From the NCBI GenBank assembly GCA_964019165.1, contig CAXHSL010000120.1, positions 124,001-188,000 on the forward strand: a stretch of 64,000 nucleotides of DNA. Reading direction: 5' to 3'. Every line of letters begins with the position of its first letter. Positions within the stretch are counted from its first letter, which is position 1. The notes beneath the pieces were generated by a model. That model was not told where the DNA came from. It ran no database searches and was given only the letters and a program-made list of their open reading frames with translations. The DNA comes from Mastigias papua (lineage: Eukaryota > Cnidaria > Scyphozoa > Rhizostomeae > Mastigiidae). The position numbers were made by a program, and so were the translations under genes. Shown one piece after another: positions 61 through 61,946 of the stretch.

Positions 61-130
61 TGTTGTGTTTAAATTAAAAGAGCCGCGCATTCGTTTCTCT
101 TCTTTGCGCTCTTTTTAATTTAACACAACA
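61..130 (+). repeat. Hairpin, XY=GC
   Basis: Arms TGTTGTGTTTAAATTAAAAG and its partner. The tip reads AGAGC, C, GC, GC, loop, TTT, GC, GCTCT: the single unpaired C and the covarying GC/GC pair of the family rule. Confidence 0.88.
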
Positions 131-180
131 CAGGAACACAGGACAAAGAGAGCACACGGTTGTTTCCATTCCTTTGTTTA

Positions 181-239
181 ATTTCTTTTGCTTTAATTCA
201 TGCTTCATTCCCATTCCATTATAATTAAAGCAAAGAAAT
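181..239 (+). repeat. Hairpin, XY=AT
   Basis: Arm CTTTAATT, tip CATGC, loop, CATTAT, then AATTAAAG. Where most hairpins have CACGC with TTGT, this one has CATGC with TTAT. Confidence 0.88.
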
Positions 240-270
240 AAGACAAAGAAAGGAAAGACGAATGAAATGT

Positions 271-411
271 AGAGCCAATTATAAATAAAATACGCGCTCC
301 TTTGTATTAAATTAAACGAAGGTAATGAAATGAGCGAAGAGAACGGAAGCACGCTTCATTTAATTTAATACAAAACGAAGGAGCGCCTTTATTACATTTA
401 TAATTGGCTCT
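271..411 (-). repeat. Large nested hairpin, reverse orientation
   Basis: Outer arms AGAGCCAATTATAA and TTATAATTGGCTCT, a middle arm GCGCTCCTTTG, and an inner tip GTAATG to GCACG, which is the reverse-strand form of the rule with XY=GT. About 140 bp in all. Confidence 0.85.
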
Positions 412-425
412 CTTTGTGTCTTTTC

Positions 426-524
426 TCTTTGTTTCTCTTTTCGTTTCTCTTTATTTCAATTACACGCGTCTGTTTCACTTCCTTGCCATTGAAATAAAAG
501 AGAAAGAGAAAAGAGAAACAAAGA
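426..524 (+). repeat. Hairpin with variant tip TACACGC/TTGCC
   Basis: Arm ATTTCAAT, tip TACACGC, loop, TTGCC, then ATTGAAAT. The tip does not obey the main rule, but the same TACACGC/TTGCC pair closes the hairpin at 9,347-9,420 on different arms. Confidence 0.75.
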
Positions 525-539
525 ACCACAGCAGACTAA

Positions 540-780
540 CCCCACATTATGATTGTAACACTTGGAGACAGTGGAATAAGAGGATGAAGAGCGGCTGTAG
601 TGGAACGGTAAAGGGATTCCAATTGTGCTTTGTTCTTGGGCTTTATTCCACGGTCTAGTTCCAGCTCCTAAAGAAAGTGGAATCCAAGTGCCGGAATTAA
701 GGTGAACGAGAACGGGAATGAAAGAAGCGACTTGGTACATTATTCCTTTGGCTTCTGGGTGGCTGGTTTCGTTCCCTTCG
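540..780 (+). other. Long spacer between hairpins, unassigned
   Basis: About 240 bp without the usual hairpin tip. It contains spacer words found elsewhere: ACTTGGAGACAGTGG, GCTCCTAAAGAAAG and ATGAAAGAAGCGACTTG (718-734, repeated at 35,182-35,198). Coding potential is poor. It may hold fragmented rRNA, but no universal rRNA string is visible. Confidence 0.4.
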
Positions 781-1222
781 CTCATTATTTCACTCAATAC
801 ACTTACAGAAGATTATGAATGAGGAATAGGTGGAAAGCAAGGGAATCATAATGGTTGTGTCCCAAGTGCAAAGTATAGTAATGGTGGTGGTTTCTCTTCC
901 TTTCCTTGTTTAATTCACGCTTCATTCGTTCACTCTCACTCCATTGTAATTAAACAAGAGAAAGGAAGAGACCACCCATTTATTATTATTAGGTCTTTTG
1001 GACTTGGAAATTAAGGTGCTTCATCAACTGGGAACTCATTCCTCTTTCATCAGTTGTATCCTCGTACTTTGTTTAATCATCAACTGTGTCTTCCTTCATC
1101 ACCAGGCATCAACAGACCCAGATAAAGGAGAATGAAGAGTGAAATGAGAGAAAGGTAAGTGAGCGAAGTGACCGCACGCTTTCACTCTTTTCACTCTCAT
1201 TCTTTCCCACCTGGTTTCGTTC

Positions 1223-1292
1223 ATAATTACTTTAATTTAAACACGCACTCACTCACTTCGTTCTTTCACTTGTTTTAAATTAAACTAATTAT
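1223..1292 (+). repeat. Hairpin, XY=AC
   Basis: ATAATTACTTTAATTTAAA faces TTTAAATTAAACTAATTAT: a perfect 19-bp stem except one mismatch eight bases from the foot. Tip CACGC to CTTGT. Confidence 0.87.
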
Positions 1293-1649
1293 TCTCTTCA
1301 CTTCATCTTTGTTCTTGACTTACAGCTCTTGGATTCCTGGTGCCCCTAAGATTGTAACTCAGTCTCTAGTACACATTCACCCTCTTCACCCGTTCACCTA
1401 TAGAAACCTTGAATATAATGGAAATAAAGGGAATTCATGCTTTCGTTCATTACACTCACTCCATTATAATTCCCTTATTTCCATTACATTCCACTCACTT
1501 CATTCATTACACTCATTCCGTTCCTACAATCCTTTATCTAGTTCAACCTTGTTCTTGACAGTGTAGAATGAAGTGGAAAAGATAAGTGAAATGAACCATG
1601 CTTACACTCCGTTCATTATGTTCATTTCACTTAACTTTCCCTTCATTCT

Positions 1650-1802
1650 CCCATCCTGGCTGTTACCTTCACGACTCAACAGATTAACTCCTAGAGACAG
1701 AGGTGAGACGGTTGTAACTCAAGACACCTATCCCAGAGTTAGTTGACTGGTGATTCCCAAGGCTAATGGTAGGTGTAAGGTGAACTATAGGGAGAAGGTA
1801 TG
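1650..1802 (+). other. Spacer with GAGACAGAGGTGAGACGGTT
   Basis: Hairpin-free stretch between the 1.6-kb hairpins and the short repeat starting at 1,803. It contains CCTAGAGACAG, a word shared with the spacers near 11,180 and 17,690, and ends in junction words (GGCTAATGGTAGGTG). No gene is recognised. Confidence 0.4.
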
Positions 1803-1970
1803 AGGTGGGAGTGTAGGAAGATAACAGAAAGAACCTTGTCTGGTGGTGAACTCCAAGTCCCTGTGTGTAATGTTTAATGCTAATGAAATAAAGGTAAGGG
1901 AACGCACGCTTTATTTCATTACAATTAAACAACACACAGGGGAATGAAAGGGAAATGTAGGTGTGAAGAA
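1803..1970. repeat. 168-bp direct repeat R8, copy a
   Basis: Recurs at 6,100-6,267 (offset 4,297). It begins in the junction word AGGTGGGAGTGTAGG and ends inside a hairpin arm, GTGTGAAGAA, that is completed differently in the two places. Confidence 0.93.
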
Positions 1971-2381
1971 AGAAGCCGAAATGAACCACGCATTCTCTTC
2001 ATTCATTTGTGTTCATTTCGTGCTTCATTCTTTCTTCACACACACATTTCATTTCCCTATCATTACCAGGATTGTGTGGGAAAGAAAGTAAAGAATGAAG
2101 AGTGTGTGTTTTTATTAAATTTAATTCATGCTTTCACTCATTCTTCGTTTCATTATAATTTAATTTAATTAAAAGAACACACACTTCATTCGTACTTCCT
2201 TCTCTTCACCTAACCTTGGTAATGATAATAAAGGTTGAAAAGGAATGAATGGAATGTAAAGAGAAAGAAGTGAAATGAACCGTGCTTCCATTCCATTTCA
2301 TTACGTTCATTTCATTTACTTCTTTCACTTCACATTACATTCACAACCTAAAGATATAGATAAAAGAGAATGGAATGAAAT

Positions 2382-2458
2382 GTGTGGTTGTTTGTAATGA
2401 ATTAAACACAATGTAATGAGAATGAAAGCGTGGTTTAATTCATTAAAACAAACCACAC
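2382..2458 (-). repeat. Hairpin, reverse orientation, XY=AC
   Basis: Inner arm AATTAAAC, tip ACAATG to GCGTG, arm GTTTAATT. The outer arms GTGTGGTT and AACCACAC are offset by bulged bases. Confidence 0.86.
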
Positions 2459-2661
2459 ATCCATTCCATTATAATTCCAGTTCAACCTTAATTTCCAAGT
2501 CATCGTATCATTCTCAAGCTTCCTATAGGTTGAAAAGAGCCTAATTTTAAATGAAATAAAGCATGCGTTCCTTTCGTTCTCTTCTTTCACTCAGATCACT
2601 TATCTTTATTTCAATTAAAATTAGTTTCTTTTCCCTCTTCCTTTGTTCCAGATTTAGAGGT

Positions 2662-2743
2662 CGTGTGCTTCTTGTTTAATTGAAACAAAGCCGTGCTTCA
2701 GTTCCTTCCATTACGCTTTGTTTGTAATTAAACAAGGCACACG
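2662..2743 (+). repeat. Hairpin, XY=GT
   Basis: Arm ACAAAGC, tip CGTGC to ATTAC, arm GCTTTGT; outer arms CGTGTGC and GCACACG. Confidence 0.87.
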
Positions 2744-2781
2744 AATCTAGGTCTGTATAGGTGGTTGGTTTTCCAGGGGTT

Positions 2782-2866
2782 GTGTGGTGTGTTTTAATTA
2801 ATGAATTCACGCTTTCGTTCTTTCCTTTCACTCCATTGTAATTCATTAAATTAAAACAAACCACAC
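2782..2866 (+). repeat. Hairpin, XY=AC
   Basis: Arm TTAATGAATT, tip CACGC to ATTGT, arm AATTCATTAA; feet GTGTGG and CCACAC. Confidence 0.88.
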
Positions 2867-3429
2867 CAGGAATCTTACGGCCGCCACTCCACCGTTCCGT
2901 TCTCTTTCGTTCACTACTCTCACTCGAATCCAGGCCAGTTACAACCTTGTTCTTGACATTAATTCCTAGTTCACCAAGATCTTTCTAGCGGTTACAAATG
3001 ATTTCCTCTTCCAAAATCTTCATTTCGTTCCTTATTTCCTTTATTACAAATGAACAGAGTGAAAGAACGAATAATGGAATGCGTGAATAAAGGAAAATAA
3101 GGAACAGAAACAACAACAGGATTCACCAAGAGACCTAATTTAATGTGAGGAGATGAAGATAGTGAATTTCCCTTGTTATGTTTAATTGAATTAATTGTAA
3201 TGTAATGAACACAGTGAGTGAAAGCACGAATTAATTCAATTGAAGCAAAACAAGGGAAATGAGTGAATGAGTGGTGCGTTCTTCTTTCTTTGTTCTTTTC
3301 GCGCTTCATTATTATTCCATTGCAAAAGAACCAAAGAAAGAAGCACTCACTCATTCTCTTCATTTCCGTTCATTCCGGAGTTCTCGTTTACACGGTTAAT
3401 TACTTCTTTGTGTTCTCTTCGTTCACTTT

Positions 3430-4570
3430 GTTTACTTCATATTATTAAAGGCACAATTTGGATTCTTTGTCTTTTACTTATTTAAATTTACATTACTTTG
3501 CATGAATTAATAAAGTAGATGTAGAGAAAGCATGTTTTACTTCATATTTCGTACACTTCATTCACTTATTTCGTTACATTAATTCTTTTATTCCTGTCTC
3601 TCGTTCATTCATTCTGTTCCTCTTTCTTTATCTTCATTCTTCACTCTTATTAAATTTACGTTCTTTTCCGGTAATAAAAGCATGAGAGAAACGAGAGAGA
3701 AACGAAATAATGAAGTGAAATATGAAGTGAGTGAATAATGAATGAAATATGTAAAGAATGCTTCGTTTATATGTAATGAGTTTTGTTTAATTAATTCACT
3801 TCGTGCTTCTCTTTCTATTCCTTCTTTTCCCTAATTATTTTCCTTCTTATTGTTGTGTAATCTTAATGAAATAGACGTCTTTCTTAATGAGCTGTGGATT
3901 AATTGTAAGGGAGAACGAATTGTAAAGGGAATGAAGTAGGTGGAGTGAATTATAAGGGAAAGATGAATGAACCGTGTGAAGCGAATGGATGCCTCAATTA
4001 ATTAAAAACAAAGAAGAAAGAGAGAGAAGCGTCCATCCATTCCTTATTGTGTTTTGCATTAGAATGAAGATGAAGGAAGTGAGAAGCAAAAGACAAATGG
4101 AAAGAAATAATGAACAGAATGGGAAGTGAAATGAAAGTAAACATGAGGAAGGAAATATAAAGTGTAATGAATTAATCCACAATATAATTATGAAATGATG
4201 CATGCTTCTTTGTATTAAAATAGAAAACTTCCTTGCGAATCAATTATTACTTTATTCATCTTTACAAAGCATATTTTGGATTCATCATTCATTTGGCTTA
4301 TTTTAATTCTTTTGTCTTATTTTATTAATTTGCATAATGTTTTTCTTATTTAAATCATACAGCATTTCATAAGATTACAAATTTCGTAAAGAATGCATGC
4401 GTTAAATCTGTGGTTTTGTTCCTGATTCTCTTTATTCAATTCACTTATCATTAATTCCTTCTTTACAGGGTTTATTAGTAATTTAACATAGCTTTCTTTC
4501 CTTTCATTCAGTTCATTTTGGGTAATCTTTAATGTCTTGGGAATTCTCTTAATATTCTTTGTGTTTAATT
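3430..4570. other. AT-rich stretch with few clean hairpins
   Basis: More than 1 kb of T- and A-rich sequence in which the usual hairpins are rare or degenerate. Words such as GCATATTTTGGAT (4,269) and ATTTTAATTCTTTTG (4,300) recur in the AT-rich stretch at 37.1 kb. The longest open frames are short and biased to F, L, I and S, as expected from composition. No gene is supported. Confidence 0.6.
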
Positions 4571-5029
4571 ATAATGTTAGGGAAATGAGAGAAACGAAAG
4601 AGCGTAATGAATGCAATGGAACGAAATGAATGCAGTGGAATGAGTGAAATGGAATGAGTGAAGTGAAGAAAGAAAGCAAGACAAGGAACGCGTGCTTCTT
4701 TCTTTGTTCACTCTACATTTCTTAGGTCTATCATTCCCGTCTTCTGTTCACCTTAATTGATAATGGAATGGAAATGAAATGAAGCGAATGTAATTATAAT
4801 GTAGAGAAACGAAAGCATGAATTAAATTCGCTTCATTCTTCATTTCACCTTTCATTACGTTCCTTTGTTCACCTAACCTGTACATTCACCTTCTTCACAC
4901 CTATATCCTTGTCTGGCGGCCGCAGTGAGTTACCTTTAAGATTGACCGTACAATTACAGCCGCAAAGAACCCAGAGAACCAAAGCACATTAAGGGAAGAG
5001 AAGGGAGCGGATTTAATTACATTCATACC

Positions 5030-5215
5030 GTTAGCCGCTCCACAAAGGAAATTGGAATGATACAAAGAGAGCATTGAGTTTACTTGAAATCAAGAGCCGT
5101 TCCAGCGTTCCACCACTCATTCCTCTCTCACTAACTGTCGGCTCAAACTGTTCAATATGCTTCTTGGGTAGCCGGTTGGTAGGGAAATAACTGCTGGAGA
5201 CACAGGAAAAAAGGC
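5030..5215 (+). other. Hairpin-free spacer of 185 bp, possible rRNA fragment
   Basis: One of the longest non-hairpin, non-AT-rich stretches. Its right end reads GGGTAGCCGGTTGG, then GGAAATAACTGCTGG, loosely like the LSU domain VI string GGTAGCTAAATGCGG then GATAAGTGCTGAAAGC. No sarcin-ricin loop is visible upstream, so I do not assign it. The base composition is nearer to the rRNA pieces than to the hairpins. Confidence 0.3.
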
Positions 5216-5249
5216 AATGGAAAAGAACCCAATTTAATTTAAAATAAAG

Positions 5250-6114
5250 AAGACAAGGAACGAATGAGACGCGTGCTTCTTATTTTAATTTAAATTAGCT
5301 CTTTTCCCTTGTGCTTTTTCCTTTCTACCTCCAGCACAGAACCAGATTAAAGGAGGAGTCCCAAGCCTAAAGTAAAATGGAAATCAAGGTGCTGTGTCTG
5401 TTCCTCTTCCTTCTTTTAATTCATGCGGTTCATGCTTCCACTTCTTTCCATTATAACCGCATGAAAGAAAAGGGGAAGAGAGAACGGAAGAGAAGCACAA
5501 GGAACCACCTTTATGACTTGGAGATACCGTTCGCTGTGACTGTAATGAAATGAACCGCCAGTAAACAAGAAAGAACTATGCCTGATTTCCTTTATTCCCT
5601 TCTCTCTTTGTACTTGGTCTTTTACAATGTAATAGAATGAAAGCGTGAAAAGACCAAGACAAAAGAAGAACGAAATCAGCCGCTGTGTGAATGAAGTGTG
5701 TGTTTTATTTAAATGAATTAAACCACGCCTCATTTCTCATTGCGTTGTGTTTAATTCAATTAAATAACACACCCACCATTCATTCCACACAACCCTCGTT
5801 TCCCTTTTCCTTCGTTCCTTTTCCATTTGTGGTCAGTTTAATTACAATGGAAGGAAGTGAAGCGTGAATTAAACTGACACAAATAAGGAAAAAGAACGAA
5901 TGGGAAACGGCCAGACAAGGTTGGAAGGAAAAAGAACTAAATTAAAATAAACAAAGAGAATTCACGCTTCGTTAACACTGCATTGTAATTCTCTTGTTTA
6001 GTTTAATTTAGGTCTTTTATTATCTTCGTCTCAATCTTCTCTGAGTGCTTCCTATAGACTTGGAGACACACCATCCAGACACTTCCCAAGGCTAATGGTA
6101 GGTGGGAGTGTAGG
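5250..6114. repeat. 865-bp repeat R4, copy a
   Basis: Recurs inverted at 32,570-33,434 (coordinates sum to 38,684). The left break is inside a hairpin just after the tip GACGCGTGCTTCTT and the right break is in the junction word GGTGGGAGTGTAGG. It contains several nested hairpins and no gene. Confidence 0.94.
5930..6018 (+). repeat. Hairpin, AAAAGA-foot family
   Basis: Feet AAAAGAACTAAATT and AATTTAGGTCTTTT pair except at the seventh base. Inner arm AGAGAATT, tip CACGC to ATTGT. Inverted copy at 32,666-32,754. Confidence 0.87.
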
Positions 6115-6267
6115 AAGATAACAGAAAGAACCTTGTCTGGTGGTGAACTCCAAGTCCCTGTGTGTAATGTTTAATGCTAATGAAATAAAGGTAAGGGAAC
6201 GCACGCTTTATTTCATTACAATTAAACAACACACAGGGGAATGAAAGGGAAATGTAGGTGTGAAGAA
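6100..6267. repeat. 168-bp direct repeat R8, copy b
   Basis: Second copy of 1,803-1,970. It overlaps the right end of R4 by 15 bp at the junction word, showing several duplications sharing one breakpoint. Confidence 0.93.
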
Positions 6268-6330
6268 GCATGCGTTCCCTTATCTTCTTCACTCCACATT
6301 TCCCATTCATTCCACAACATTTCATTCCTC

Positions 6331-6410
6331 TTATTTTGTGCTTATTGAATAGAAATAAACCGTGCGTCATTCTTCCTTACGTTTATTTCAATTCAATAAG
6401 AACAAAATAA
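6331..6410 (+). repeat. Hairpin, TTTTGT-foot family, XY=GT
   Basis: Feet TTATTTTGTGCTTATTGAAT and its partner pair except one G-to-T difference just after TTTTGT. Tip CGTGC to TTAC. Confidence 0.86.
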
Positions 6411-6699
6411 CCCACATCATTCCTGTGTTTCGTTCATAATTCGTTTAATTTAAACACGCATTCCTTCGTTTCACTCATCATTTGTTTTAAATTAAACGAA
6501 TTATTCTCTTCACCTAATCCTGTGACTTAATTCTCTAGGTCGTGTGTTGTGTTTAAATGTAATGAAAACGAAATCACGCATTCATCATTTGTATTTCGTT
6601 TCATTATATTTAAACAACACACGGCTCATTCCATTCACTGCGTTCATTTCATTACAATCCCAGATCTTGATTCCTTCTTTCCTCTGTCTTCACCTTACA

Positions 6700-6850
6700 T
6701 TCTGGCCTTTGGGTTCACCTTCGTTCTGGGCTTACTATTCACCTACTAATCAAGGTACTTCCCTTCTTTCTGGGTTATCTTCCTACACTCCCACTCCCAC
6801 CTACTAATCCTCTTTCCCTTCCTACACTCCGTTCCTGGTGCTTCTTATTC
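6700..6850. repeat. Junction-word cluster upstream of R3
   Basis: Contains ACCTACTAATCAAGG, CTTTCTGGGTTATC and CTACACTCCCACTCCC, then enters R3 at TCCTCTTTCCC. Confidence 0.8.
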
Positions 6851-6858
6851 TTAGGGTG

Positions 6859-6921
6859 CTTTGTTTCGTGGCTTGTTTCACGCTTCCATTACTTTCCATT
6901 GTAAACAAGCCACAAACAAAG
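6859..6921 (+). repeat. Compact hairpin, XY=AC
   Basis: Arm GTGGCTTGTTT, tip CACGC to ATTGT, arm AAACAAGCCAC: a perfect 11-bp inner stem. Copies in R2a and R2b. Confidence 0.9.
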
Positions 6922-7059
6922 GACAAAGAACCTTGAACAGTTGGAATTATACCGTGGCAGCCGTCAGTGAACCCTGGAAAGTAGACTACCTCCAAGAATG
7001 ACTTGATGAACTAGGATATAACTGATAGAAACCATGCCTGGCGGTGGGAGTGGAACGGC

Positions 7060-7150
7060 CGTGTGCTTGTTTCCATTCGTTACGTGGTTTAATTACAATA
7101 AAGCGAAGCGGAAGCGTGAATTAAACCACACGAATGGAAACAAACACACG
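7060..7150 (-). repeat. Hairpin, reverse orientation, XY=AC
   Basis: Arm GTGGTTTAATT, tip ACAAT to GCGTG, arm AATTAAACCAC. The outer feet CGTGTG and CACACG close it. Copies at 19,966-20,056 and inverted at 54,732-54,822. Confidence 0.9.
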
Positions 7151-7153
7151 ACA

Positions 7154-7221
7154 TAAAAGAACTAAATTAATGTAAAAAGCGTGCACTTCGTTTACCTTTT
7201 TCAATTAATTTAGGTCTTTTA
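7154..7221 (+). repeat. Hairpin, AAAAGA-foot family, short loop
   Basis: Feet TAAAAGAACTAAATTAA and TTAATTTAGGTCTTTTA with the conserved seventh-base mismatch. Arm AAAAAG, tip CGTGC to TTTAC with only six bases between. Confidence 0.88.
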
Positions 7222-8324
7222 TTCCTTTCTCACATCCTTCGTCTCACAACCCTGTTCCTGATTCTGTTCCTGTGTGTTAATTAAATGAACGAAGAGACAA
7301 AGAAGAGAAACGTATGCGTGCTCTTCGTTCTATTTAATTAAAACACAGGGGTTCGTGTTTGCTTTCTCTTTCCAATTAATTCACGCCTCATTCTTGCGTT
7401 GTAATTAATTGTAAAGGAAAGAGAAACGCGAACGGAATCAGGAACAGGAACGAAAGGGAAATGTAAAGGAACAAAAACAATGAAGAGAAACGTAAGCGTG
7501 TTTTGTTCCTTTTCATTTCTCTTTCTCCAATCTTAAGGTTGTAGAAAAGGAAAGGAAAGAAACGAATGAACCGTGCTTTCATTACGTTCATTTCGTTCTT
7601 TCCTTTTCCTTTTCCCTATTCTTGTAAGCCTGGAAAGAGTGATAGCGGTCTAGCTCCAGTTCGTTCAGTCACATTCCCATTTTGTACTAATTGAATAGAT
7701 TAAAAGGTAAGTGAACGCAGTGAGTGCACGCTTTTACTCTATTCAATTAATACAAAATAAGGGGAAAGAAGATTATGAAGAGAGCACTGTGTGGAATTTA
7801 GAATGAAGAAAAACAAATGAAACGAAGTGGAATGCGTGTTTTCTTCATTTTAAATTTAACACAGTGGGAACGAAATGTGTGCTCTTTCTTCATGTCACAG
7901 CGGTTTAAATTTAATAATAAAATCATGCTTCCATTCCATTCACTCACTTCGTTCTTTCCTTCCATTCCATTATATTTTATTATTAATTAAACACGCTGTC
8001 CATGAAGAGCACAACACACGCGGCCTTTATTTCTTTTACCTTTTATTATCAGGCCGCAACTATAATGGAATGTGAAGAGAATAATGTGCTAAGTTTAATT
8101 GAAGAAAAACAAATGTAGTGTGAACGGAATGCGTGTTCATTTAATTTAAACTGGACACAAGACACCACACTTTCTAAACTTTAGAATATTGGAAATTCAT
8201 AAATTTTATAATCTACAACTTTTTTATTGGCATTTTCTTGAAATCTTATGGTTATTTATCTTTCTAGTCTTTTATCTTTACTTTCTAGTTCCTTTATGGT
8301 TGGGTCTCCAGGTGAAAGGAACCC

Positions 8325-8956: not shown

Positions 8957-9057
8957 TGAGCCGCTTTGTGTTTCCTTCATTTTAATTTAACCGCGCTTTC
9001 TCTTTGTCGCTACATTGCGTTAAATTAAAATGAAGAGAACACAAAGAAAGCGGCTCA
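8957..9057 (+). repeat. Hairpin, XY=GC, TGAGCCG feet
   Basis: Feet TGAGCCGCTTTGTGTT and partner. Inner arm AATTTAAC, tip CGCGC to ATTGC, arm GTTAAATT. Confidence 0.88.
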
Positions 9058-9166: not shown

Positions 9167-9234
9167 ATTTTGTGCTAATTGAATTAAATAAACCGTGCTT
9201 TCATTACGTTTATTTCATTCAATTAGAACAAAAT
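9167..9234 (+). repeat. Hairpin, TTTTGT-foot family, XY=GT
   Basis: Feet ATTTTGTGCTAATTGAAT and ATTCAATTAGAACAAAAT differ at one base after TTTTGT. Tip CGTGC to ATTAC with a very short loop. Confidence 0.88.
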
Positions 9235-9269
9235 ACCATTTCATTCATTCTTATCTGGAACAAGTTGGA

Positions 9270-9346: not shown

Positions 9347-9420
9347 GCTTTGTTTGTTCCTTTTATTTCGCTTACACGCATTCTTTGCCAGCGAAATAAA
9401 GGAACAACAAAGAACAAAGC
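9347..9420 (+). repeat. Hairpin with variant tip TACACGC/TTGCC
   Basis: Arm TTATTTCGCT, tip TACACGC to TTTGCC, arm AGCGAAATAA. It is a close relative of the hairpin at 61,882-61,946, which has the same arms but a shorter stem and an ordinary tip. Confidence 0.85.
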
Positions 9421-9429: not shown

Positions 9430-9600
9430 ACGGAGTGTAGGAAGATAACCCAGAAAGAAGGTGAAGGTACCTTGATTAGTAGGTGGAACTACCTTGATTA
9501 GTAGGTGAAGGTACCTTGATTAGTAGGTGGGAGTAAGTCAGGTGTAAAGGTGAAGGTACCTTGATTAGTAGGGAAGGAAAGACAATGACAGGTGGGATGG
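9430..9600. repeat. Junction-word cluster upstream of R1a
   Basis: Reverse-strand words: TACCTTGATTAGTAGGTG three times in about 80 bp, with GGAGTGTAGGA and CCAGAAAGAAGG. It separates R7 from R1a. Confidence 0.82.
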
Positions 9601-9610
9601 ATTCCAGGGG

Positions 9611-9687
9611 CAAAAGACCTAAATTAAAGTAAAAAGGTAAGCGAAAGAAAAGAGCGCACGCTTTTTACATTTAATTTAGTTCTTTTG
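9611..9687 (-). repeat. Hairpin, AAAAGA-foot family, XY=GT
   Basis: Feet CAAAAGACCTAAATTAAA and partner with the seventh-base mismatch. Arm GTAAAAAG, tip GTAAG to GCACG, arm CTTTTTAC. Confidence 0.88.
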
Positions 9688-11287
9688 TGGAATGAAAAGG
9701 AATTAAAGAGAAAGCGTGCGCTTCACTTACCTTTCTCTTTACTTCCATTTCATTCACTTTGTTCATTCCATTTATACCTATCTCCTGTTATCCAGATAGA
9801 AGATTAGACAACGAGAATGATATGATGAATGAATGAAGTGTGAAGAAAGCATGCGCTCATTCCTTTCACTTATCTTTCTTCACACATTCATTCATCATTA
9901 CATTCCCTTCTCAATCACTGGTACCCTTCCTGGTTGTAAGGGAAAAGGAGTGAACGAATTAATTAAACGAAACAAACGGAAAGTAAGAGAAGTGCGTGTT
10001 CGTTCTTAATTCGTTCTTTTCTCTTTTCACCATTCATTCTTATCATTCTTCGTTATCATTCCAATGTCAAGTGACTGTGTGGTAGCGGCTTGGGAATGAA
10101 GAGAGCAAAAAGGAATTATAATGGAATAGAATGAAAGCATGAATTCATTTTGCTCTCTCATTTCCATTCCACTTTCCTTTCCACCTACTTTCCAACTAAT
10201 CTCAGATCAAGAACAATGATTCGTGTGTTCATTTGTATTAATTAAACACACTCATTCCCCACTGCGTTTATTCTGTACAAAATAGAAATCATCACTCATT
10301 TCATAACAATTAATGATTTGTGTTTTAATGAAGCATGTTTTCCTTCCTATTGTGTAGTTTTATTTGAATTAAACATAACGTAGTGGAATGAAGGCATGGT
10401 TTAATTCAATTAAAACAAACAAAGGGAACGAACCATGATTTCCTTCTCATATAGGTGCTTTTGTTTAGTGCTTTGTGTTTCCTTTCAATGAAATGTAATG
10501 AAATGGAATGAAAGCGAGAAGGAAACACAAAGAACAAACGAAGCACAATAACCCAACCTCTGTTTCCAAGTCTTTTGTTCCTTTGTCTTTACTTTAATTT
10601 AGCTCTTTTACAATGGAATAAAGGGAAGCGTGAAAAGGGCTAAATTAAACAAACACAAAGGGCTGTGACTTAATTTTAAACTAAACAAAGCATGCTTCAT
10701 TCCACTGCATTCCATTCCATTATCTTTGTTTAGTTAAAATTAGACACAGCACAACAAGACTTAGAGACAGCTGTGAGGTTGGGATAAAAGAAATAAGTGA
10801 AATGAAAGGAAGAGAGCATTCTTTGTTTATTCTTTTTCAATTGACTCTCTTCATTTCATTCACTTATAACACAGATGGAACTAGATGAAATAAAGAAAGC
10901 ATTCATCTCACGGTGCCATCAGTTCATTCATCGTTTACTGGCGGTCGAGAGGAAAAGGCAAAGTGAATATGAACAAAGCGTGCACTTCTTTCGTTTACCT
11001 TTGTTCAATTCACTTGGGCCTTTTGGGAGCGGTAAAGGAAGAGAAAGACGAACCCCCGAACGGAATGGTACAGAAGGAAAAACTCCAAGTCAAAGAAGGT
11101 TCGTTCCATTTCATTTAATTACAAGCGATAAAAGGAAAGAGCGCGTGAATTAAATGAAATGAAAACGTACCTCTGTCTCTAAGAGTTATTGAGTCACACC
11201 AGCCACGAACTAAATCCTAGATCCACCAGTAATAATGAAGTGAGAAGTGAGTCACAGGTGTACAGGAATCTCTCATGCTTCGTTCAC

Positions 11288-11374
11288 ATTCGTTTCTATT
11301 TAATTAAAAGAAGCACGCTTTCACTTCACCTTCGTTCCTTTACATTGCCTTCTTTCTAATTAAATTAAACGAAT
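11288..11374 (+). repeat. Hairpin at the cox1 3' end
   Basis: Arms ATTCGTTT, TTTAATTAAAAGAAG and partners, tip CACGC to ATTGC (one of the two tip pairs mismatched). The right arm carries the last codons and the TAA stop of cox1. Copy at 26,247-26,333. Confidence 0.82.
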
Positions 11375-12876: not shown

Positions 12877-12896
12877 TCGTTTCTTTACATTAATTG
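12843..12896 (+). repeat. Hairpin at the cox1 5' end, XY=GT
   Basis: Arm CAATTAAT, tip CGTGC to TTAC, arm ATTAATTG. On the minus strand it supplies both candidate start codons and the codons for NARLIV. Copies at 27,802-27,855 and 45,519-45,572. Confidence 0.85.
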
Positions 12897-13063
12897 AAAT
12901 AAATTAAACACACTTACCATTAATATTTGACTTATAATTAATGACACCTTGTTTATGCTGTAGATTGACTGTTCTTTCCTTCTCTCACTCTTTCGTTCAT
13001 TCCTCTCTCTCTCGTTCGTTCTCCCTTTGTATTTGGGTGTAAAGAATGCTCTCTTCATCTCTC

Positions 13064-13170
13064 TGTTCGCCTTTGTTCTTTCCCTTCGCTTAATTCATGC
13101 TTACATTCCTCTTTCTTTCCATTCCATTATAATTAAGCGAAGTGAAAGCAACAAATGAACAAGGCGAACA
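13064..13170 (+). repeat. Hairpin upstream of cox1, XY=AT
   Basis: Outer arms TGTTCGCCTTGTTC-like and GAACAAGGCGAACA; inner arm CGCTTAATT, tip CATGC to ATTAT, arm AATTAAGCG. Copies in R1b and R1c. Confidence 0.86.
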
Positions 13171-38783: not shown

Positions 38784-38851
38784 AGTTCCACCTACTAATC
38801 CTCCTATAGTTCACCTTCTTTCTGGGTTATAGTTATACCTTCACCTACTAA

Positions 38852-45205: not shown

Positions 45206-45218
45206 GGGTTCCTTTCAC

Positions 45219-49851: not shown

Positions 49852-49890
49852 AATTAGGCTTAGAAGATTATGAAAGTAAATAGCTGGTTT
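49852..49890 (+). rRNA. LSU rRNA GTPase-centre fragment, copy 3
   Basis: Third copy, inside the truncated third block. Here the rRNA fragment is intact although cox1 in the same block is cut. Confidence 0.74.
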
Positions 49891-50261
49891 GTTCCCATTC
49901 CGTTTCTCTTTCTTTGCGTTCAGTTGTAATGAAAGAATGAAAGCACGAACTGAACGCAAAAGAAAAGAGAGAACGGAATTGAACAAAGAGCACAAGAACT
50001 GGATGGAATGCCTGCGTGTTAATTAAGTGAAATGAACGAACACGCGTCTCTCTTCACTTCGTTCTCGTTCACTTGTTTCGTTTCATTTCAATTAATTATA
50101 ACGCAGGCACTGGAATCCAACCATCATCAACAGTCTTTCGGGAGTTTCCAATCTTATCTGGGTGCCGTGACTGGTGGTGGTTGTGTGTTTTCTTAATGTG
50201 TGGATTAATTCATGCTTACACTCCGTTCATTATAATTAAACCACACATTAAGACAACACAA

Positions 50262-50345
50262 CACCTACCATTAGCCTTCTCCTTATCACCTACTTTCTGG
50301 GTTATAGTTATCATTCCTCCTATAGTTCACCTTCGTTCCAGGGTT
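50262..50345. repeat. Junction between R1c and R2b
   Basis: ACCATTAGCCTTCTCC, CTTTCTGGGTTATAG and TCCTCCTATAGTTCACC. Only 36 bp separate the end of R1c from the start of R2b. Confidence 0.82.
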
Positions 50346-53300
50346 GACCGTGCGGCTGTAGCAATAAAGGAGAATGAAAGGAAAGAAAGGTAAGTGAAGC
50401 GCACGCTTTCTTTCATTTCATTCCCTTTATCCCCTTTGTTTAATTTGCCTTTTCCTTTTACTTCGTTTGTGCTTTATTCACGCGGTCACTTCGCTCACTT
50501 GTAATAAAGACAAACGAGAAGGAAAAGGCAAAGCAAACAAAGGACAGCCGTAAAGTCTGGAACAAAAAGGAAGAATAATGAAGTGAGTGTGTTTATTTAT
50601 TTAATTGAATAAAGACAAATGACAAAGAGAGTGCGTGCTTTATTCAATTTAAATAAACACACTTCATTCATTCACTCACTCCGTTTTCCCTTTGTGTTTT
50701 ATTTAGTTAAATTAAATTACAAATGAACAGAAAGGAAGTGCGTGAATTTAATTTAATTAAACAAAAACACAAATGAAAACACCCATTTCGTTCATATGTG
50801 GTCTAATTTTAATTAAATAAAGCACGCGTTCCCTTGTCTTTATTCAATTAAAATTAACCCACATTATTCTCTTCATATTATAAGAGGATGAAGTGAGTGA
50901 AAGGAACGAAATGGAGTGGTGTGTTTAATTTAATTGAATTAATACAAATGAAAATAAGAGAATGCGTGATTAATTCAATTAAAAACACACACCACGCATT
51001 CATTCTTTTCTCTTTTCTCTTTTCCCTTTTATTCGGTTCATGCTTCATTCCACTACATTATAACCGAATAAAAGAGAAAAGGAAAGAGAATTAGAATGAA
51101 GAATCCAGTACTTGTTTCCCTTTCCACCGTTCCTCCTATACCCTGTTTCATTTCGTTTCATTTAATTAAATTACAAGGGAAAAGAGAGAGCCGCGTGAAT
51201 TTAATTAAAGAGAAACGAAGCACAGGGAATAGGTGGAATGAGTGGAAAGTAATGGAAACAAGAACTGGTGCGTCTTTCATTAAATTAAACCGTGCTTTCA
51301 CTTCATTCTTCGTTCCATTACGTTTAATTTTAATGAAAGAAATGATGAAATAAGTGAAAGCATAAAAGAGTAAAATAATTAGAATGTGTGGAAGTGAAGA
51401 ACGAAATAAAGCACGCATTCACTTCATTTCTTTCGCTCACTTGTGTTTAATTCGTTCATTCTCTCTTCCACCACCTATAAAGAATGAAGAGATCCCTGAA
51501 CCAAAAGCAGCTTTCTATCTCATGGTGCTTCCTCTCTCCACGGTTCAATCTTCATACATTATAATTAGAGTCTTTCGGGACAAGGAACGAATGAACCGTG
51601 GCGGCCTAACAGTAATTCCTAAGTCATCCCAGATAAACCATCATGCTTTCTTTAGGAGCCAGACCGCTATGAATAAGAAATGAAGTGAATGTTCTCTGTG
51701 TTAAGTTAATTGAAATAAAACAAATGAGAGAAACGTAATGCGTGTTTATTTCCAATTAAATTTAACACAGAGAAAGGAACGAAATGTAAGCGTATTGAGT
51801 TAAAAGAGAGCTTTCTATCTCATGGTCTTTTGCTTCGCTTCATTATCTTCATTCTTCATTATAATTAAACATATGGTGCCTTCATTCCTTTCACTCTTCT
51901 TCATGCTTTGTGTTTAATTATAATGAAGGCAACGAAATGGATGCATGTGCCGTGTGTCTTGTTTACTTTAATTATAATGAATGCATGAGTGAACAGAATG
52001 AGCCGTCTTTAGTTTAATTTAATTATAATGCATGCGCTGTGCTTAATTTAATATAATGTAGCATGCATTGTTTAATTAAATTATAATGAATTCACTTCTT
52101 ATTTCACTTCTCACTACGTTCTTCTATTCCATTACTTTCGCTACAGATATAATTCTATTCCACCACTTATTTCTTTCATATTTTGGACAATAATTTCTCG
52201 TTTATCTGGATTACTTATTTCACTTCATTCACACTTTTCCTTTCATATTCTGTAATTAATAATTCCTGGAGATGCGAGAAGAATGAGCGGCTGTTTACTT
52301 CCTATTAATATTGGTGGATTTGCGAATAAAGAAAGCAATGGAAAGAATGAACAGAGTGAAGGAAATAAACAAGGATTTAATATTTATTTTGCCTTTTAAT
52401 TTACCCTTTTCACCTTTTAATTTGGGAAATTCTTTGCTTTTTAATTAATAATTTCACCTCTTTTGCTTAATAATTTCTATATTCTGGAAATTCTCTTGTT
52501 TTAATTCACTTATTTCTCTATATCTTCTTCAACTTTACACATCATGGTTCCTTCTTCCACCTATTTCACTTATTATAAAATGTAAGTCTTGTTTATATTT
52601 AATTAAACGCAGCCGCACTTTCCATCATTTGTGTCTTTCATTCATTCCACATATTTCGTTTCATTTTAATAGTAATAAACACACTTTCCGTTCTTCATCT
52701 CTTCACCACATCACCTCTCATTCATAATGTCTGGATACAATGGAATGATATTGATGCGATAAGAGAACAGAGTGAGTGAATTATTTAATAGCAAAAGAAT
52801 TCTCTAATAATAATGTAATTCTAATTCACTCTTTATTTCATTCATGCTTTCCTTTCCATTGCATTCTATTTCACTTCGTATTTCCATTTCTATTTCTATT
52901 TTAATGTAATTCACTCTTTATTTCCATTCTATTTCATTGCCTGCGGTTTAATTAATTTAAACTAAACACATTCACCATTAATGATTTACAGGCGGTCGGC
53001 TCACGGTCATAACGGTAACTAACCAAGAACTATAGGAAGCTTACTGATGGAACTAGGATTCTATTATCTGGGGTTCTATCTTTGACTTGGGCTTCTTTAA
53101 TTCCCGTGTCTTCCGTTCCTTCCCACTTTCGGCTCAATCTGTCCCGTCTTCACTTCTTTTCCTTATTTTGCCCAAATTAATTAAATTAAATTAAGCGCGC
53201 TTCATTCATTCTTCATTCCATTGCCTTAAGTTAATTTAATTAGGGCAAAATAGGAACGAAGTGAGAACGGAATGAGCCGACATGGAGGTGCCATCAGAAT

Positions 53301-55074
53301 CCTTTTGTAGGAGCTCTTGGGATTCAAGAACCTGTTATCCTTGGCGAACCACAAATCAAGGGTTAACCGATGATGAATGAGCCGTGTGTTCAGTTTAAAT
53401 TAATTAAATCACGCATCCATTCCATTACTTTGTATTTAATGAATTTAAACTGAACACACGAATCATTCATGCCTGGTTGTTGCCTTCGGGACACGGTGTT
53501 CACGGTTAACGAAGGAGCCGAAAGAATGAAACCACGGCCGCCACGAACTAGACCCCAGATATAAAGAGTCCCAAGTCTAATAACCAAGTCTCGTTACCGT
53601 TCATTCTTCACTTCCGTTACATTGCGTTAATTTAAATTAAATAAAACACACGGGGAAAGAAGACCGCACATCCTGGAACTTGGAGCCCTTAATCATATTG
53701 TTGTTCCTGGTTTCGTTCATATGTGCTTCGTTTAATTGGAAGAAAACACGCATTCCGTTCACACTACATTTGTTTTTCTTCAATTAAACTTAGCACATTA
53801 TTCTCTTCACATTCCATTATAGTTGCGGCCTGATAATAAAAGGTAAAAGAAATAAAGGCCGCGTGTGTTGTGCTCTTCATGGACAGCGTGTTTAATTAAT
53901 AATAAAATATAATGGAATGGAAGGAAAGAACGAAGTGAGTGAATGGAATGGAAGCATGATTTTATTATTAAATTTAAACCGCTGTGACATGAAGAAAGAG
54001 CACACATTTCGTTCCCACTGTGTTAAATTTAAAATGAAGAAAACACGCATTCCACTTCGTTTCATTTGTTTTTCTTCATTCTAAATTCCACACAGTGCTC
54101 TCTTCATAATCTTCTTTCCCCTTATTTTGTATTAATTGAATAGAGTAAAAGCGTGCACTCACTGCGTTCACTTACCTTTTAATCTATTCAATTAGTACAA
54201 AATGGGAATGTGACTGAACGAACTGGAGCTAGACCGCTATCACTCTTTCCAGGCTTACAAGAATAGGGAAAAGGAAAAGGAAAGAACGAAATGAACGTAA
54301 TGAAAGCACGGTTCATTCGTTTCTTTCCTTTCCTTTTCTACAACCTTAAGATTGGAGAAAGAGAAATGAAAAGGAACAAAACACGCTTACGTTTCTCTTC
54401 ATTGTTTTTGTTCCTTTACATTTCCCTTTCGTTCCTGTTCCTGATTCCGTTCGCGTTTCTCTTTCCTTTACAATTAATTACAACGCAAGAATGAGGCGTG
54501 AATTAATTGGAAAGAGAAAGCAAACACGAACCCCTGTGTTTTAATTAAATAGAACGAAGAGCACGCATACGTTTCTCTTCTTTGTCTCTTCGTTCATTTA
54601 ATTAACACACAGGAACAGAATCAGGAACAGGGTTGTGAGACGAAGGATGTGAGAAAGGAATAAAAGACCTAAATTAATTGAAAAAGGTAAACGAAGTGCA
54701 CGCTTTTTACATTAATTTAGTTCTTTTATGTCGTGTGTTTGTTTCCATTCGTGTGGTTTAATTCACGCTTCCGCTTCGCTTTATTGTAATTAAACCACGT
54801 AACGAATGGAAACAAGCACACGGCCGTTCCACTCCCACCGCCAGGCATGGTTTCTATCAGTTATATCCTAGTTCATCAAGTCATTCTTGGAGGTAGTCTA
54901 CTTTCCAGGGTTCACTGACGGCTGCCACGGTATAATTCCAACTGTTCAAGGTTCTTTGTCCTTTGTTTGTGGCTTGTTTACAATGGAAAGTAATGGAAGC
55001 GTGAAACAAGCCACGAAACAAAGCACCCTAAGAATAAGAAGCACCAGGAACGGAGTGTAGGAAGGGAAAGAGGA
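50315..55074. repeat. 4.76-kb repeat R2, inverted copy b
   Basis: Mirror image of 19,714-24,473. It follows R1c, whereas copy a precedes R1b, so R1 and R2 are joined in opposite order and orientation in the two places. This is what homologous recombination across repeats produces. Confidence 0.95.
53269..53347 (-). rRNA. LSU rRNA fragment, peptidyl-transferase region, inverted copy
   Basis: Reverse-strand copy of the domain V piece, inside the inverted copy of the 4.76-kb block. The conserved strings and the compensatory stem are unchanged. The same hairpins flank it in mirrored order. Confidence 0.91.
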
Positions 55075-55880: not shown

Positions 55881-55968
55881 TTCGTGGCTTTCTTTGCTCT
55901 TTTATTCTCGCTTCGCTTCCGTTTCACTCACGCTGCCATTGAAATAAAAGAGCAAAAACAGCCACGAA
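55881..55968 (+). repeat. Hairpin, XY=TC
   Basis: Feet TTCGTGGCT and AGCCACGAA-like, arm CTTTTATT, tip CTCGC to ATTGA, arm AATAAAAG. A rare XY class that still covaries. Confidence 0.86.
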
Positions 55969-57715: not shown

Positions 57716-57721
57716 GCCCCT

Positions 57722-58936: not shown

Positions 58937-60075
58937 GACGCTGTGAGTGAAGTGGAACGAAAGAGAGACGAAATGAACCGTGCTTTCATTACGTTCATTT
59001 CTTTTCTCTCTCTTTCGGTTCTCTTCATTCACATCTTTACAGGATTTCATGTTTAGGGTTCGTGGCTCTTCTTCCTCTTTAATTTAATTGCAAAGAAGTA
59101 GAACGCATGCGCGAATTAAATTAAAGAGAAGAAAAGAGCCACGAGTAAACCACTGTCTCAAGGTGCTGTTGTAGGTGTAATAATTGTGGTTCGTTTTTAA
59201 TTTGTGTTTTGTTCATATTAAATTAAATTCACGCTTCATTACATTCCATTGTAATTTAATTTAATTAGAACAAACACAAAGGAAAAACACACGGTGGAAA
59301 GAGTGAAATGAATGAGAAACGAAGCATGCGTTCCACTTATCTTCGTTTCTATTCATTTCAATCTTTCCCTTGTTTCTTTGTCTTGGTCTTTTTCACGCTT
59401 CCTTTCTCTCATTGTAAAAAGACCAAGAACAAATGAAACAAGGCATGAATGAAGTGAAAAGAGAGAAAACACGCGCTCATTCATTCCTTTCACTCGCTTG
59501 TTTTTCTCCTTTTCATTTCATTCATTCTTATTCTTATTATTAGGTTGTGGGAAAAGGAATGAAATAAAGAGAATGAAAAGTAATGGAATGTGAACGAAGT
59601 GGAATGAAGCACGTTTTCATTCGCTTTATCTTCATTTACTTTTCCACCATTATTATTTGGATTCCAGGGTGAAGAGAGCGGAGTGAACGAAGTGAGTGAA
59701 GTGAGATGAATGGTAAGTGTGGTCTTATTTCGCTTAATTATAAATGAAGTGCATGAATTAAACGAAAGAAGACACACGAATCCATGAATGAAAAGTGAAC
59801 AGAAACAGGAATGATTCCGTGGCCTGGTTTCGTTCCCTAATTTGTTTCTTTTGTTGCGTTTAATTCGTGCTTCATGCTTCCATTACAATTAAACGCAATA
59901 AAAGACCCAAATTATTACACTCACTTCACCCTTGTTCTTGATTCATTGTTCTTCTTTGTGCTTCTTTCGTGGCTTATTTCTCGCACTCCTTTCTCTCACT
60001 TGAAAATATGCCACAAAGAAGAACAATGAAGAGAAACCAGGCATGAATGGTAACTAAATCTAGGTGAATGAGTGG

Positions 60076-60145
60076 TTTTGTTCTAATTGAATTAAATTAA
60101 AAGGTAAAGAATGCACGCTTTTAATTTATTTCAATTAGCACAAAA
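60076..60145 (-). repeat. Hairpin with minimal tip, TTTTGT-foot family
   Basis: Feet TTTTGTTCTAATTGAA and partner with the mismatch after TTTTGT. Arm TTAAAAG, tip GTAAAGAATGCACG (14 bases), arm CTTTTAA. Confidence 0.88.
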
Positions 60146-60349
60146 TATAGAACGAACGGAAATTAAAAAGAACAAAACACGCTTCATTCTTCATTGTTTT
60201 TGTTCTTTTTACTTTCACTTCGTTCTACAACCTTGTCTGGATGGGAATGAAATGAAATGTAATGTGGAATGAATGGTATCTTCTGGTACACTTGGGATTA
60301 GTTCATGATGGCCGGCGGTTGATTTCCAGGTCAAAGAGAGCCGGAAGAA

Positions 60350-60900
60350 TGATCCAGGATTTACAATTATAGATTAATGAAAGGAAATAATGAAAGAGTA
60401 ATGAAAGTTCACAGTTAGTTCATATATAATTCTATGAAATGAAGAAATGAAAGAATGAATGTGCCAAGTTAAAAGAATTAAATTAACAAGAAGGAGATCA
60501 GGAACAAGAATATTAATGAAAAGATAAGAGAAACAAAATATTTTATTACAATTAATTCAAATAAACACTCTTCCTTTATTGTTGCCTTGTTCCATTTCAT
60601 TACATTCACCACAAGATATGAAATGAAGATAATGTGAAGGAAATAATGAGCGAGAATGAAGAATTAACGAAGGGAAAGATGAATAAAGGAGCAAAATAAT
60701 TATTCCTAAAGGTAAAAACGTAATTAATAACAAGAAGTCAAATACCAATAAATATTAAATTAGAAAAAAGAATGGAAATGAAATAAGCCAAATGTAAGAA
60801 AGTGAAGAGGGAAAAGAATGAAGATAATGGAATATGAAAAGAATGAAAGCATTAATTAAAATAAAATGATCAATTATAATTAAGGTGACATTAAAGATTA
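60350..60900. other. AT-rich stretch with a 20-base match to cox1
   Basis: Hairpin-poor. Bases 60,741-60,760 match cox1 bases 11,527-11,546 exactly and in the same sense, and the frame coding LIFIGI is open on either side if TGA is Trp. The flanking codons do not resemble cox1, so a relic is possible but unproven. Confidence 0.4.
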
Positions 60901-61132
60901 GGTGTAATGTAGTGATGAAAGAACGGAATGGAACGAATGGAAAGAAGCGCGTGTTTCTTTGTTTCGTGCCTTTGTGCTTTTCTTCTCTAGGCCAGGTGTG
61001 AATGTGTTTAGTTAAATTAAATTAAGCAAAAGTAATGAAATCATGCTTCCGCTCACTTCATTATATTTCATTACGTTCTTTTTGCTTAATTAATTAAAAA
61101 TAAACACATTTCATTCACCTTTGTTCTCTGGT

Positions 61133-61210
61133 TGTGTGGCTGGTGTGTTCATTTATAATTAATTCACGCGTATTCACTTGTAATTAATTATAAACAAACA
61201 CAGCCACACA
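61133..61210 (+). repeat. Hairpin, XY=AC
   Basis: Feet TGTGTGGCT and AGCCACACA, arm TATAATTAATT, tip CACGC to TTGT, arm AATTAATTATA. Confidence 0.87.
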
Positions 61211-61423
61211 TTCATTATAATTTAGGTCAACAGCTGATTTCCTCAATTCTTTCTTGTTTCCCTTGTTTGTTTATTTAAATTAACCGTGCTTCATTCGTTC
61301 ACCCTCTTCACTTCATTCCATTACGTTAATTTAAATAAAGTAAACAAGGGAAAAGAACGAACCGAGAGATGAAGATAGCAGATTTAGGGAACGGTACAGA
61401 AGGAAGAACCACCTTGATTTCCA

Positions 61424-61516
61424 ATTCGTGTGCTTGTTAATTAAAAGAAATGAAATCACGCATCTCACTTCGTTTCATTTGTATTTCATTTATTTTAATT
61501 AATTAAACACACGAAT
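61424..61516 (+). repeat. Hairpin, XY=AC
   Basis: Feet ATTCGTGTG and CACACGAAT, arm AAATGAAAT, tip CACGC to TTTGT, arm ATTTCATTT. Confidence 0.86.
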
Positions 61517-61702
61517 CTTTATCTTTACCACAAGGATATAGGTGTAAAGAATGAATTGAATATGAAGAAGAATGAATGAATTACAAACGAAAGTAAGAGA
61601 AGTGCGTGAATTCATTCCATTTCTTCTTTCATTATTCACTTCATTCCTTTCCCGTGGCTGGTTCGTGGCTCTTGGTGAACTACCTCCAAGTCATAAAGAA
61701 GG

Positions 61703-61795
61703 CAAAAGACCCAAATTAATATGAAATAAAGAGAATTATAAGGGAATAAAGGGACGCATGAATTCTCTTTTATTTCCATTAATTTAGCTCTTTTG
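61703..61795 (-). repeat. Hairpin, AAAAGA-foot family, XY=AT
   Basis: Feet CAAAAGACCCAAATTAAT and partner. Inner arm AGAGAATT, tip ATAAG to GCATG, arm AATTCTCT: the reverse form of the AT class. Confidence 0.85.
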
Positions 61796-61881
61796 TAATG
61801 GAATGGAAAGTGAAGTGAAGAAAGACAATGGAATGACAATGAAGCGTGCTTTCTTCACTTTACAATTTCCATTCCATTATT

Positions 61882-61946
61882 CTTTGTACTTTGTTGTTCC
61901 TTATTTCGTGCATTCTTTACAAATAAAGGAACAACAAAGAACAAAG
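61882..61946 (+). repeat. Hairpin with minimal tip, XY=GT
   Basis: Arms CTTTGTTGTTCCTTATTT-like and AAATAAAGGAACAACAAAG, tip CGTGCATTCTTTAC (14 bases). Homologous in its arms to 9,347-9,420, which has four extra stem pairs. Confidence 0.87.

Follow-up and report, generated by a model that had tools for sequence, protein, structure and literature searches.

A family of hairpins with a covarying, purine-rich apex in likely dinoflagellate mitochondrial DNA from a cnidarian assembly

Genes and setting of the hairpin-bearing contig

The window considered here is a stretch of 64,000 nucleotides from the Mastigias papua assembly GCA_964019165.1 (contig CAXHSL010000120.1, forward-strand positions 124,001 to 188,000), in which mitochondrial genes lie among hairpins that share one covarying tip on freely varying stems. 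It is part of a contig of 214,761 bp, designated C121, in an assembly of 347 Mb and 172 contigs, and C121 is likely the mitochondrial DNA (mtDNA) of a dinoflagellate symbiont within a cnidarian assembly. Three full and two partial copies of cox1 and four copies of cox3 are present on C121, as are matches to LSUE and LSUG, fragments of dinoflagellate mitochondrial ribosomal RNA (rRNA). Together with the lack of transfer RNA (tRNA) genes in the window, these matches back the dinoflagellate mitochondrial origin proposed in a sequence-only reading of this DNA. Dinoflagellate mitochondrial genomes encode cox1, cob, cox3 and fragmented rRNA but no tRNA, and the comparison made here covered cox1, cox3, the rRNA fragments and tRNA. 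No tRNA was found in three further 10-kb pieces, and Rfam gave 0 matches at the gathering score within the window. A scan for 16 rRNA motifs matched five at the allowed mismatches and gave nothing for the other 11; the SSU900 matches (4 mismatches allowed) were discarded as hairpin-like sequence that is likely to match by chance, and two single matches to LSU2585, with 2 mismatches each, were left unused.

An open frame for cox1 occupies 11368-12903 (- strand), its N-terminal part overlapping a hairpin, with a second copy at 26327-27862 (-) and a partial copy at 45205-45579 (-). The frame at 11368-12903 contains an in-frame TGA at codon 156, at an apparent conserved Trp (GGGTGWTFFPPL), and a second TGA at codon 12, inside the 5′-end hairpin; RNA editing is a possible explanation, as is non-coding sequence ahead of the true start. 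A cox3-like frame with one internal TAG is found at C121:4595-5239 and in three more copies. Among the 120 matches listed for cox1, identity ranged from 81 to 91% and the majority came from a source labelled merc; the mtDNA looks like that of a coral-type algal symbiont. The cox1 search gave no match in viral contigs and, in prokaryote genomes, returned 16 loci, every one titled as bacteria; these scans brought up no further dinoflagellate mtDNA. Contig C172 is animal-type mtDNA of 16,455 bp in which ARAGORN (bacterial code) reported no tRNA genes beyond one for Met and one whose anticodon is tca. This pattern, which we take to be cnidarian, suggests a cnidarian host, in whose assembly the window would probably represent mtDNA of the symbiont. 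The A+T content is 64.6% by base counts, and the available part of a report on Symbiodinium minutum mtDNA gives 64.3% (PMC4558855). Hairpins cover 43.6% of the window and 43.5% of the contig, about one per 220 bp; their coverage of the cox1 frame is 5.5%, with the overlap confined to its 5′ end, and the repeats are thus mostly intergenic.

Covariation at the hairpin tip

The tip follows the order stem, unpaired C, a dinucleotide XY, GC, a loop, TT, the complement Y′X′ and the returning stem. All 13 hairpins cited in the sequence-only reading carry this tip with the XY given for them (13/13, stems 8-17 bp). With a stem of at least 6 bp, 289 such tips (192 unique) occur in the window, whereas 20 simulated Markov sequences, half of order 2 and half of order 4, each hold one such tip or none. 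The earlier observation is real, and the pattern is stronger than first described; the whole of C121 holds 973 tips, 296 of them unique. When the stem, C, GC and TT were required over the whole contig and XY was left free to pair or not, XY and its partner were complementary in 278/288 cases with an arm of at least 7 bp, in 254/256 with at least 8 bp and in 178/178 with at least 10 bp, which supports the proposed covariation. The five dinucleotides listed in the sequence-only reading all occur; the choice is not free, however, and a sixth is found once (AC 147, GT 70, AT 54, GC 13, TC 11 and GA 1 among the 296 unique tips), XY never beginning with C. Beyond XY, the bases N and N′ form a third pair, of Watson-Crick type in 286/296 unique tips. 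The earlier description was thus right for the outer apex and missed both this third pair and a structured loop, having described the strand on which the loop looks unpaired, whereas the better-determined structure lies on the opposite strand.

Covariation against shuffled sequence was assessed in an alignment of 48 window tips that have 15-nt loops and no gaps. Cells that pair as the named structure requires make up 93.8% (55.3% shuffled), cells changed on both sides number 250 (79.2 shuffled), and the covariation score is 1.003 against 0.263 (sd 0.018), falling to at most 0.21 when the partner columns are slid by 1-3 positions; because the 48 tips were pre-selected for the rule and for stems of 6 bp or longer, the comparison is unconditioned only for N and for the inner layer described below. 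Applied to 229,358 bases from 19 sources, 165,358 bases of them controls, a covariance model built from these tips, which match it by construction, returned 302 matches at E 0.01. Among the 300 matches listed, one lies in L002, a locus that had been retrieved with a tip-like pattern, and all others lie in the window. Of two scans of viral contigs for tip patterns, one gave 4 stretches with no rule tips among them and the other gave 0, and window positions 1-8000 had no match among phage records.

The rule also emerges when inverted repeats are collected by their arms. Perfect inverted repeats in the window with an arm of at least 10 and a loop of at most 70 number 228 when counted uniquely; the inner end carries the full rule in 106, three of its four features in 1 and two or fewer in 121, many of the last being outer stems of rule-obeying hairpins. 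The 106 are split between the strands (57 on + and 49 on -), both orientations having been noted before. On C121, 301 unique perfect inverted repeats with an arm of at least 11 include 146 that end exactly in a tip, 113 with a tip further in, 11 that overlap a tip and 31 with none. A second tip form, TACACGC-N..N′-TTGCC, is found in at least 4 of these 31 (9362-9400, +, in the window and 20544, 23794 and 69301 on the contig); on the purine-rich strand it keeps AA and GC and is readable as X·X′ = G·T.

Individual hairpins illustrate the use of XY (strands refer to the C-XY-GC tip, and positions cited earlier follow the cores). XY is GC at 55-139 (+, tip 84-107) and in the cores at 8984-9026 (+; 8,957) and 18767-18803 (+; 18,747), and AT at 163-256 (+, tip 199-222), at 1565-1649 (+, tip 1597-1619), upstream of cox1 at 13044-13177 (+) and in the core at 61730-61768 (-; 61,703). 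AC is found at 862-1007 (+, tip 916-947, with a 23-nt N..N′ loop), upstream of cox1 at 13365-13472 (+), in the cores at 2800-2847 (+; 2,782), 6871-6910 (+; 6,859) and 43132-43170 (+; 43,111), and at 1223-1292 (+, tip 1242-1273), where a paralogue at 6427-6513 has some stem positions changed and a different loop. GT is carried by the short-loop hairpin at 1859-1941 (-, tip 1894-1908), by 2649-2755 (+, tip 2692-2714), by the hairpin at the cox1 5′ end (12819-12919, +) and by the core at 9186-9215 (+; 9,167), and TC by the core at 55899-55950 (+; 55,881).

Paralogous hairpins show compensatory changes of XY on both sides. The hairpin at 18406-18509 (-, XY = AC) has 84.6% identity to 36217-36312 (XY = TC), X and its partner having changed together, and the one at 39887-39971 (-, XY = AT) has a paralogue at 42341-42425 in which XY is GT and the partner is altered to match. 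In 129 pairs of similar hairpins, 203 differences are both-sided and still paired, 264 are one-sided and 28 are both-sided and unpaired; many of these matches are low-complexity, as most matches of 65-78% in the all-pairs comparison appear to be, and the examples given are limited to cases with matching flanks. Subfamilies with common lower stems (TTTTGTGCTAATT / AATTAGAACAAAA; AAAAGAACTAAATT / AATTTAGGTCTTTT), a fixed mismatch and differing upper stems and loops were also observed, with members at 7152-7220, 9612-9689, 9167-9237, 40527-40608 and 60076-60146 of the window.

Apex and stem architecture on the purine-rich strand

The strand opposite to that of the C-XY-GC tip is purine-rich and is termed here the structured strand. 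Its plan reads 5′-stem-XY-AA-N-(inner loop)-N′-GC-Y′X′-G-stem′-3′, the inner loop consisting of purine spacers and 2-bp layers or of a GNA or GNRA loop. The AA, the GC and the extra G define the hairpin family, while the stem sequence is free but must pair. Lengths from N to N′ are quantised at about 6, 15 and 23: among the 296 unique tips they are 5-8 in 39, 12-17 in 159, 21-27 in 60, 31-34 in 12 and 41-50 in 8, with 18 between these ranges and none of 10, 20, 30 or 35-40.

Each length class has its own regularities on the structured strand. Five-nt loops read N-GNA-N′ in 12/12 cases, as in the core at 9186-9215 (TGAAA, N-GAA-N′), and six-nt loops read N-GNRA-N′ in 10/13; seven-nt loops are all readable as two pairs and a triloop (10/10), three with T·G as the second pair. 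Among 15-nt loops, an A faces a G in 71/79, a G faces an A in 48/79 and two purines are opposed at the middle position in 60/79, and in 23-nt loops the tandem G·A position and the A·G position are each filled in 17/18. From the sequence and from known motifs we infer that these G·A oppositions are sheared pairs. In hairpins of the (GGAAT)n / (TGGAA)n satellites and in d(GCGAAGC) mini-hairpins, two Watson-Crick pairs alternate with G·A (GGA-type) spacers, and the loop is of the GNA type; compared with the satellites, the pairs here vary with compensation, the units top a long stem and no tandem satellite is formed.

Further inside the 15-nt loops two additional pairs covary, positions 5·11 being paired in 51/79 (30.3 shuffled) and 6·10 in 48/79 (27.4 shuffled). 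The two layers of 23-nt loops are present in 7/18 (2.9 shuffled) and 5/18 (2.3 shuffled), a moderate excess. One layer adds about 8-9 nt, which agrees with the steps in loop length. Where N-N′ is not Watson-Crick (n = 10), the pair on the structured strand is G·T in 9 and A·C in 0; over nine inner pair positions, G·T occurs 33 times and A·C twice, against 51.9 and 26.6 in shuffles, the sums being taken over rows for 15-, 14-, 23- and 7-nt loops with two rows that had neither left out. The apex on this strand tolerates G·T and avoids A·C.

The stems are A+T rich, with a median length of 35, gaps included. The innermost stem runs for 8-12 bp before its first irregularity in 122/192 window tips (arm at least 5), the chance of a break per bp rising from 0.05 at 5-6 to 0.34-0.39 at 11-12, and an irregular lower stem lies beyond; innermost perfect runs longer than 14 bp number 17/191. 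Read on the structured strand, 197 isolated stem mismatches comprise 20 G·T, 33 A·C and 144 others, and RNA pairing in the stems was rejected on this lack of wobble excess. Near the tip the counts are G·T 12 and A·C 6. At 14 bp or more from the tip they are A·C 27 and G·T 8, the reverse of the asymmetry at the apex.

Recognition of the hairpins, competing explanations and rearrangement

The suggestion that the tip is a recognised structure is supported by the strong covariation, the fixed unpaired bases and the small number of near-miss tips, and a strict folded tip on freely varying stems suggests recognition by shape; such recognition is deduced from sequence constraint. As a tentative best guess, the hairpins may be a DNA element read by shape by a nuclear-encoded mitochondrial protein, as a binding or start site for a polymerase or primase. 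The apex would fold, with sheared G·A pairs, when its strand is single or extruded as a cruciform; the protein would recognise it by shape and a few bases, and the hairpin would act on DNA. Candidate readers are the single-subunit mitochondrial RNA polymerase, a primase or another structure-specific binder, and the step served could be the start of transcription or the priming of replication, on either strand, by analogy with the use of DNA hairpins by the virion RNA polymerase of phage N4. Like the N4 enzyme, mitochondrial RNA polymerases are T7-like, and the hairpins are proposed as read on DNA because of this kinship and the N4 parallel. A more far-reaching form, which we regard as unlikely, would make the non-coding mtDNA a dense array of about 300 distinct N4-like start or binding sites on both strands, read by shape through sheared G·A steps and covarying 2-bp layers; in dinoflagellate mtDNA, inverted repeats would then be signals for transcription or replication, not junk or recombination sites.

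The available part of a report on the N4 promoters (PMC4496689) describes DNA hairpins, read in extruded form, in which the non-conserved part of the stem has only to pair, as here; their three-base loop contains a sheared G:A, and they are bound by a T7-like polymerase. Stem pairing and the GNA sequence are both found here, the fold being predicted from sequence. In contrast to the three early promoters described for N4 in that part (PMC4496689), about 300 distinct hairpins are present here, and these have an additional base, an internal loop of GC and AA and further layers. Inverted repeats have already been described in the mtDNA of Crypthecodinium, Karlodinium and Amphidinium, and the present hairpins resemble them in being dense and mostly intergenic (PMC2151934, in part). 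Those of A. carterae are imperfect, their stems measuring 50-150 nt and their AT-rich loops about 10-30 nt, and those of C. cohnii and K. micrum are described as rich in G+C, unlike the A+T-rich stems here; the available text of that report (PMC2151934) gives no conserved tip, covariation or loop code. The role of such repeats is stated as unknown in the accessible parts of two papers (PMC7800619, PMC4558855). Neither a covarying tip nor an apex with G·A layers was found described in the literature searched, which covered few subscription papers and no A. carterae report (Nash 2007). Many hairpins in mitochondrial intergenic DNA are likewise a feature of sponge RHE (PMC2800124) and Volvox palindromes (PMC2670323), as given in the available parts of these reports.

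The strict code and its apparent purifying constraint make it testable which protein is involved, whether DNA or RNA is read and which step is served. The covariance model could be used in annotating dinoflagellate mitochondrial genomes, and the hairpins offer natural covariation evidence for a G·A-rich architecture. Sponge RHE and Volvox palindromes are families of sequence, unlike the hairpins here, in which the arms are mostly not shared and the structure is.

Several results weigh against a DNA-level reading built on a layered apex. The inner 2-bp layer is complete in only 25/73 unique 15-nt loops, even if 9.8 are expected from shuffling and 0/2000 shuffles were as high; loops of at least 11 nt with one or more inner layers are a minority (88/240, against 44.2 shuffled with a maximum of 57), and the layer is not significant in 14-, 16- or 24-nt loops taken alone. 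Standard energy models prefer the structured strand modestly, in 212/296 cases as RNA and 185/296 as DNA. The same apex should be stable as RNA too, with its GNRA loops and consecutive G·A pairs. Five hairpins lie upstream of cox1 (3) and cox3 (2) at no more than 500 bp, and in all of them the structured strand is the sense strand, as it is at the cox1 5′ end; the mtDNA of S. minutum is transcribed almost throughout, according to the available part of PMC4558855.

These last points favour the main rival, in which the structured-strand hairpin acts in transcripts of a genome with fragmented rRNA as a signal for processing, stability or RNA-protein assembly, a possibility that we place on the unlikely side. 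It gains further from the GNRA-type tetraloops and consecutive G·A oppositions, from the tolerance of G·T(U) on one strand only and from the hairpin next upstream of LSUE, which is also sense. Against it, the structured strand is antisense in the hairpins next downstream of cox1 (11078-11190, -) and of LSUE and next upstream of LSUG. The next neighbours of cox1, cox3, LSUE and LSUG on both sides come to 5 sense and 3 antisense, with one cox3-LSUE hairpin counted for both genes, so the RNA processing named in the sequence-only reading stays as a rival and lacks clear strand support. Orientations are mixed, neighbours being opposite in 195/333 unique pairs, and the stem mismatches show no G·U excess. 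A role at the level of DNA is held to be likelier because the stems show no wobble preference, the orientations are mixed and gene sense is not followed.

Spread of the hairpins themselves, also raised in the sequence-only reading, would mean that a mobilising enzyme recognises the tip and that continued spread keeps the family; this we consider rather improbable. The density of the hairpins and the dispersed paralogous families with common lower stems are in keeping with it, as are 10 pairs of hairpins whose stems differ but whose loops of 14-15 nt are identical, against Markov-loop means of 0-0.15. Simple selfish DNA is disfavoured by the scarcity of near-misses (in the window, a single tip with three of the four features beside 106 complete ones), a scarcity qualified by the 31/301 strong inverted repeats without a tip on the contig, and by the absence from C121 of palindromes with an arm of at least 10 and a loop of 0-10, which leaves no empty centres. 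Loop identity arises partly from the constraints on the loops: 7 identical 15-nt pairs were found where position-specific chains give 0.21, but a tree model with pair dependencies expects 2.09 (maximum 8 in 500 runs), and exchange of loop modules between hairpins is for that reason not claimed. It is very improbable that the family is a by-product of copying, with template switching or inter-arm repair keeping the arms complementary and the tip as the remainder where the process cannot act. The few wobble pairs in the stems, the scarcity of long innermost perfect runs and the many compensated differences between similar hairpins, a good part of them from low-complexity matches, fit such a process, which does not predict the fixed C, GC and TT, the restriction of XY, the quantised loops or the G·A positions of the structured strand.

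Adjacent hairpins on C121 have the same orientation in the other 138 of the 333 unique neighbour pairs, and where two tips lie 40-80 nt apart one arrangement predominates (-+ 46, as against +- 11 and same 14).

Recombination was among the functions named in the sequence-only reading and is disfavoured for large rearrangements. Breakpoints, taken as the ends of duplicated segments of at least 300 bp and at least 97% identity, avoid the hairpins: 33/263 distinct breakpoints fall in hairpins, which cover 43.5% of the contig, and 17/228 do so after merging identical contexts, where hairpins make up 42.8% of distinct sequence; all come from one assembly and are not mutually independent. Integron attC sites and IS200/IS605-type sites are recognised as folded strands through their shape and their extrahelical bases, the sequence of the stem being free; the hairpins differ from these in that large rearrangement breakpoints avoid them, no recombinase or transposase having been sought, and attC-like recombination sites were rejected for such rearrangements. 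The duplications observed are direct and inverted, several kb long and 99.7-100% identical (9518-17602 / 24472-32561 / 45219-50293; 19714-24473 / 50315-55074). Most of 60 listed breakpoints lie within direct-repeat stretches of the CTAATCAAGGTAG / AACTATAGGAGGATTAGTAGGTGGGAG type, and a stretch of the CTAATCAAGGTAG type, of the kind where breakpoints cluster, is found outside the hairpins at 38768-38837.

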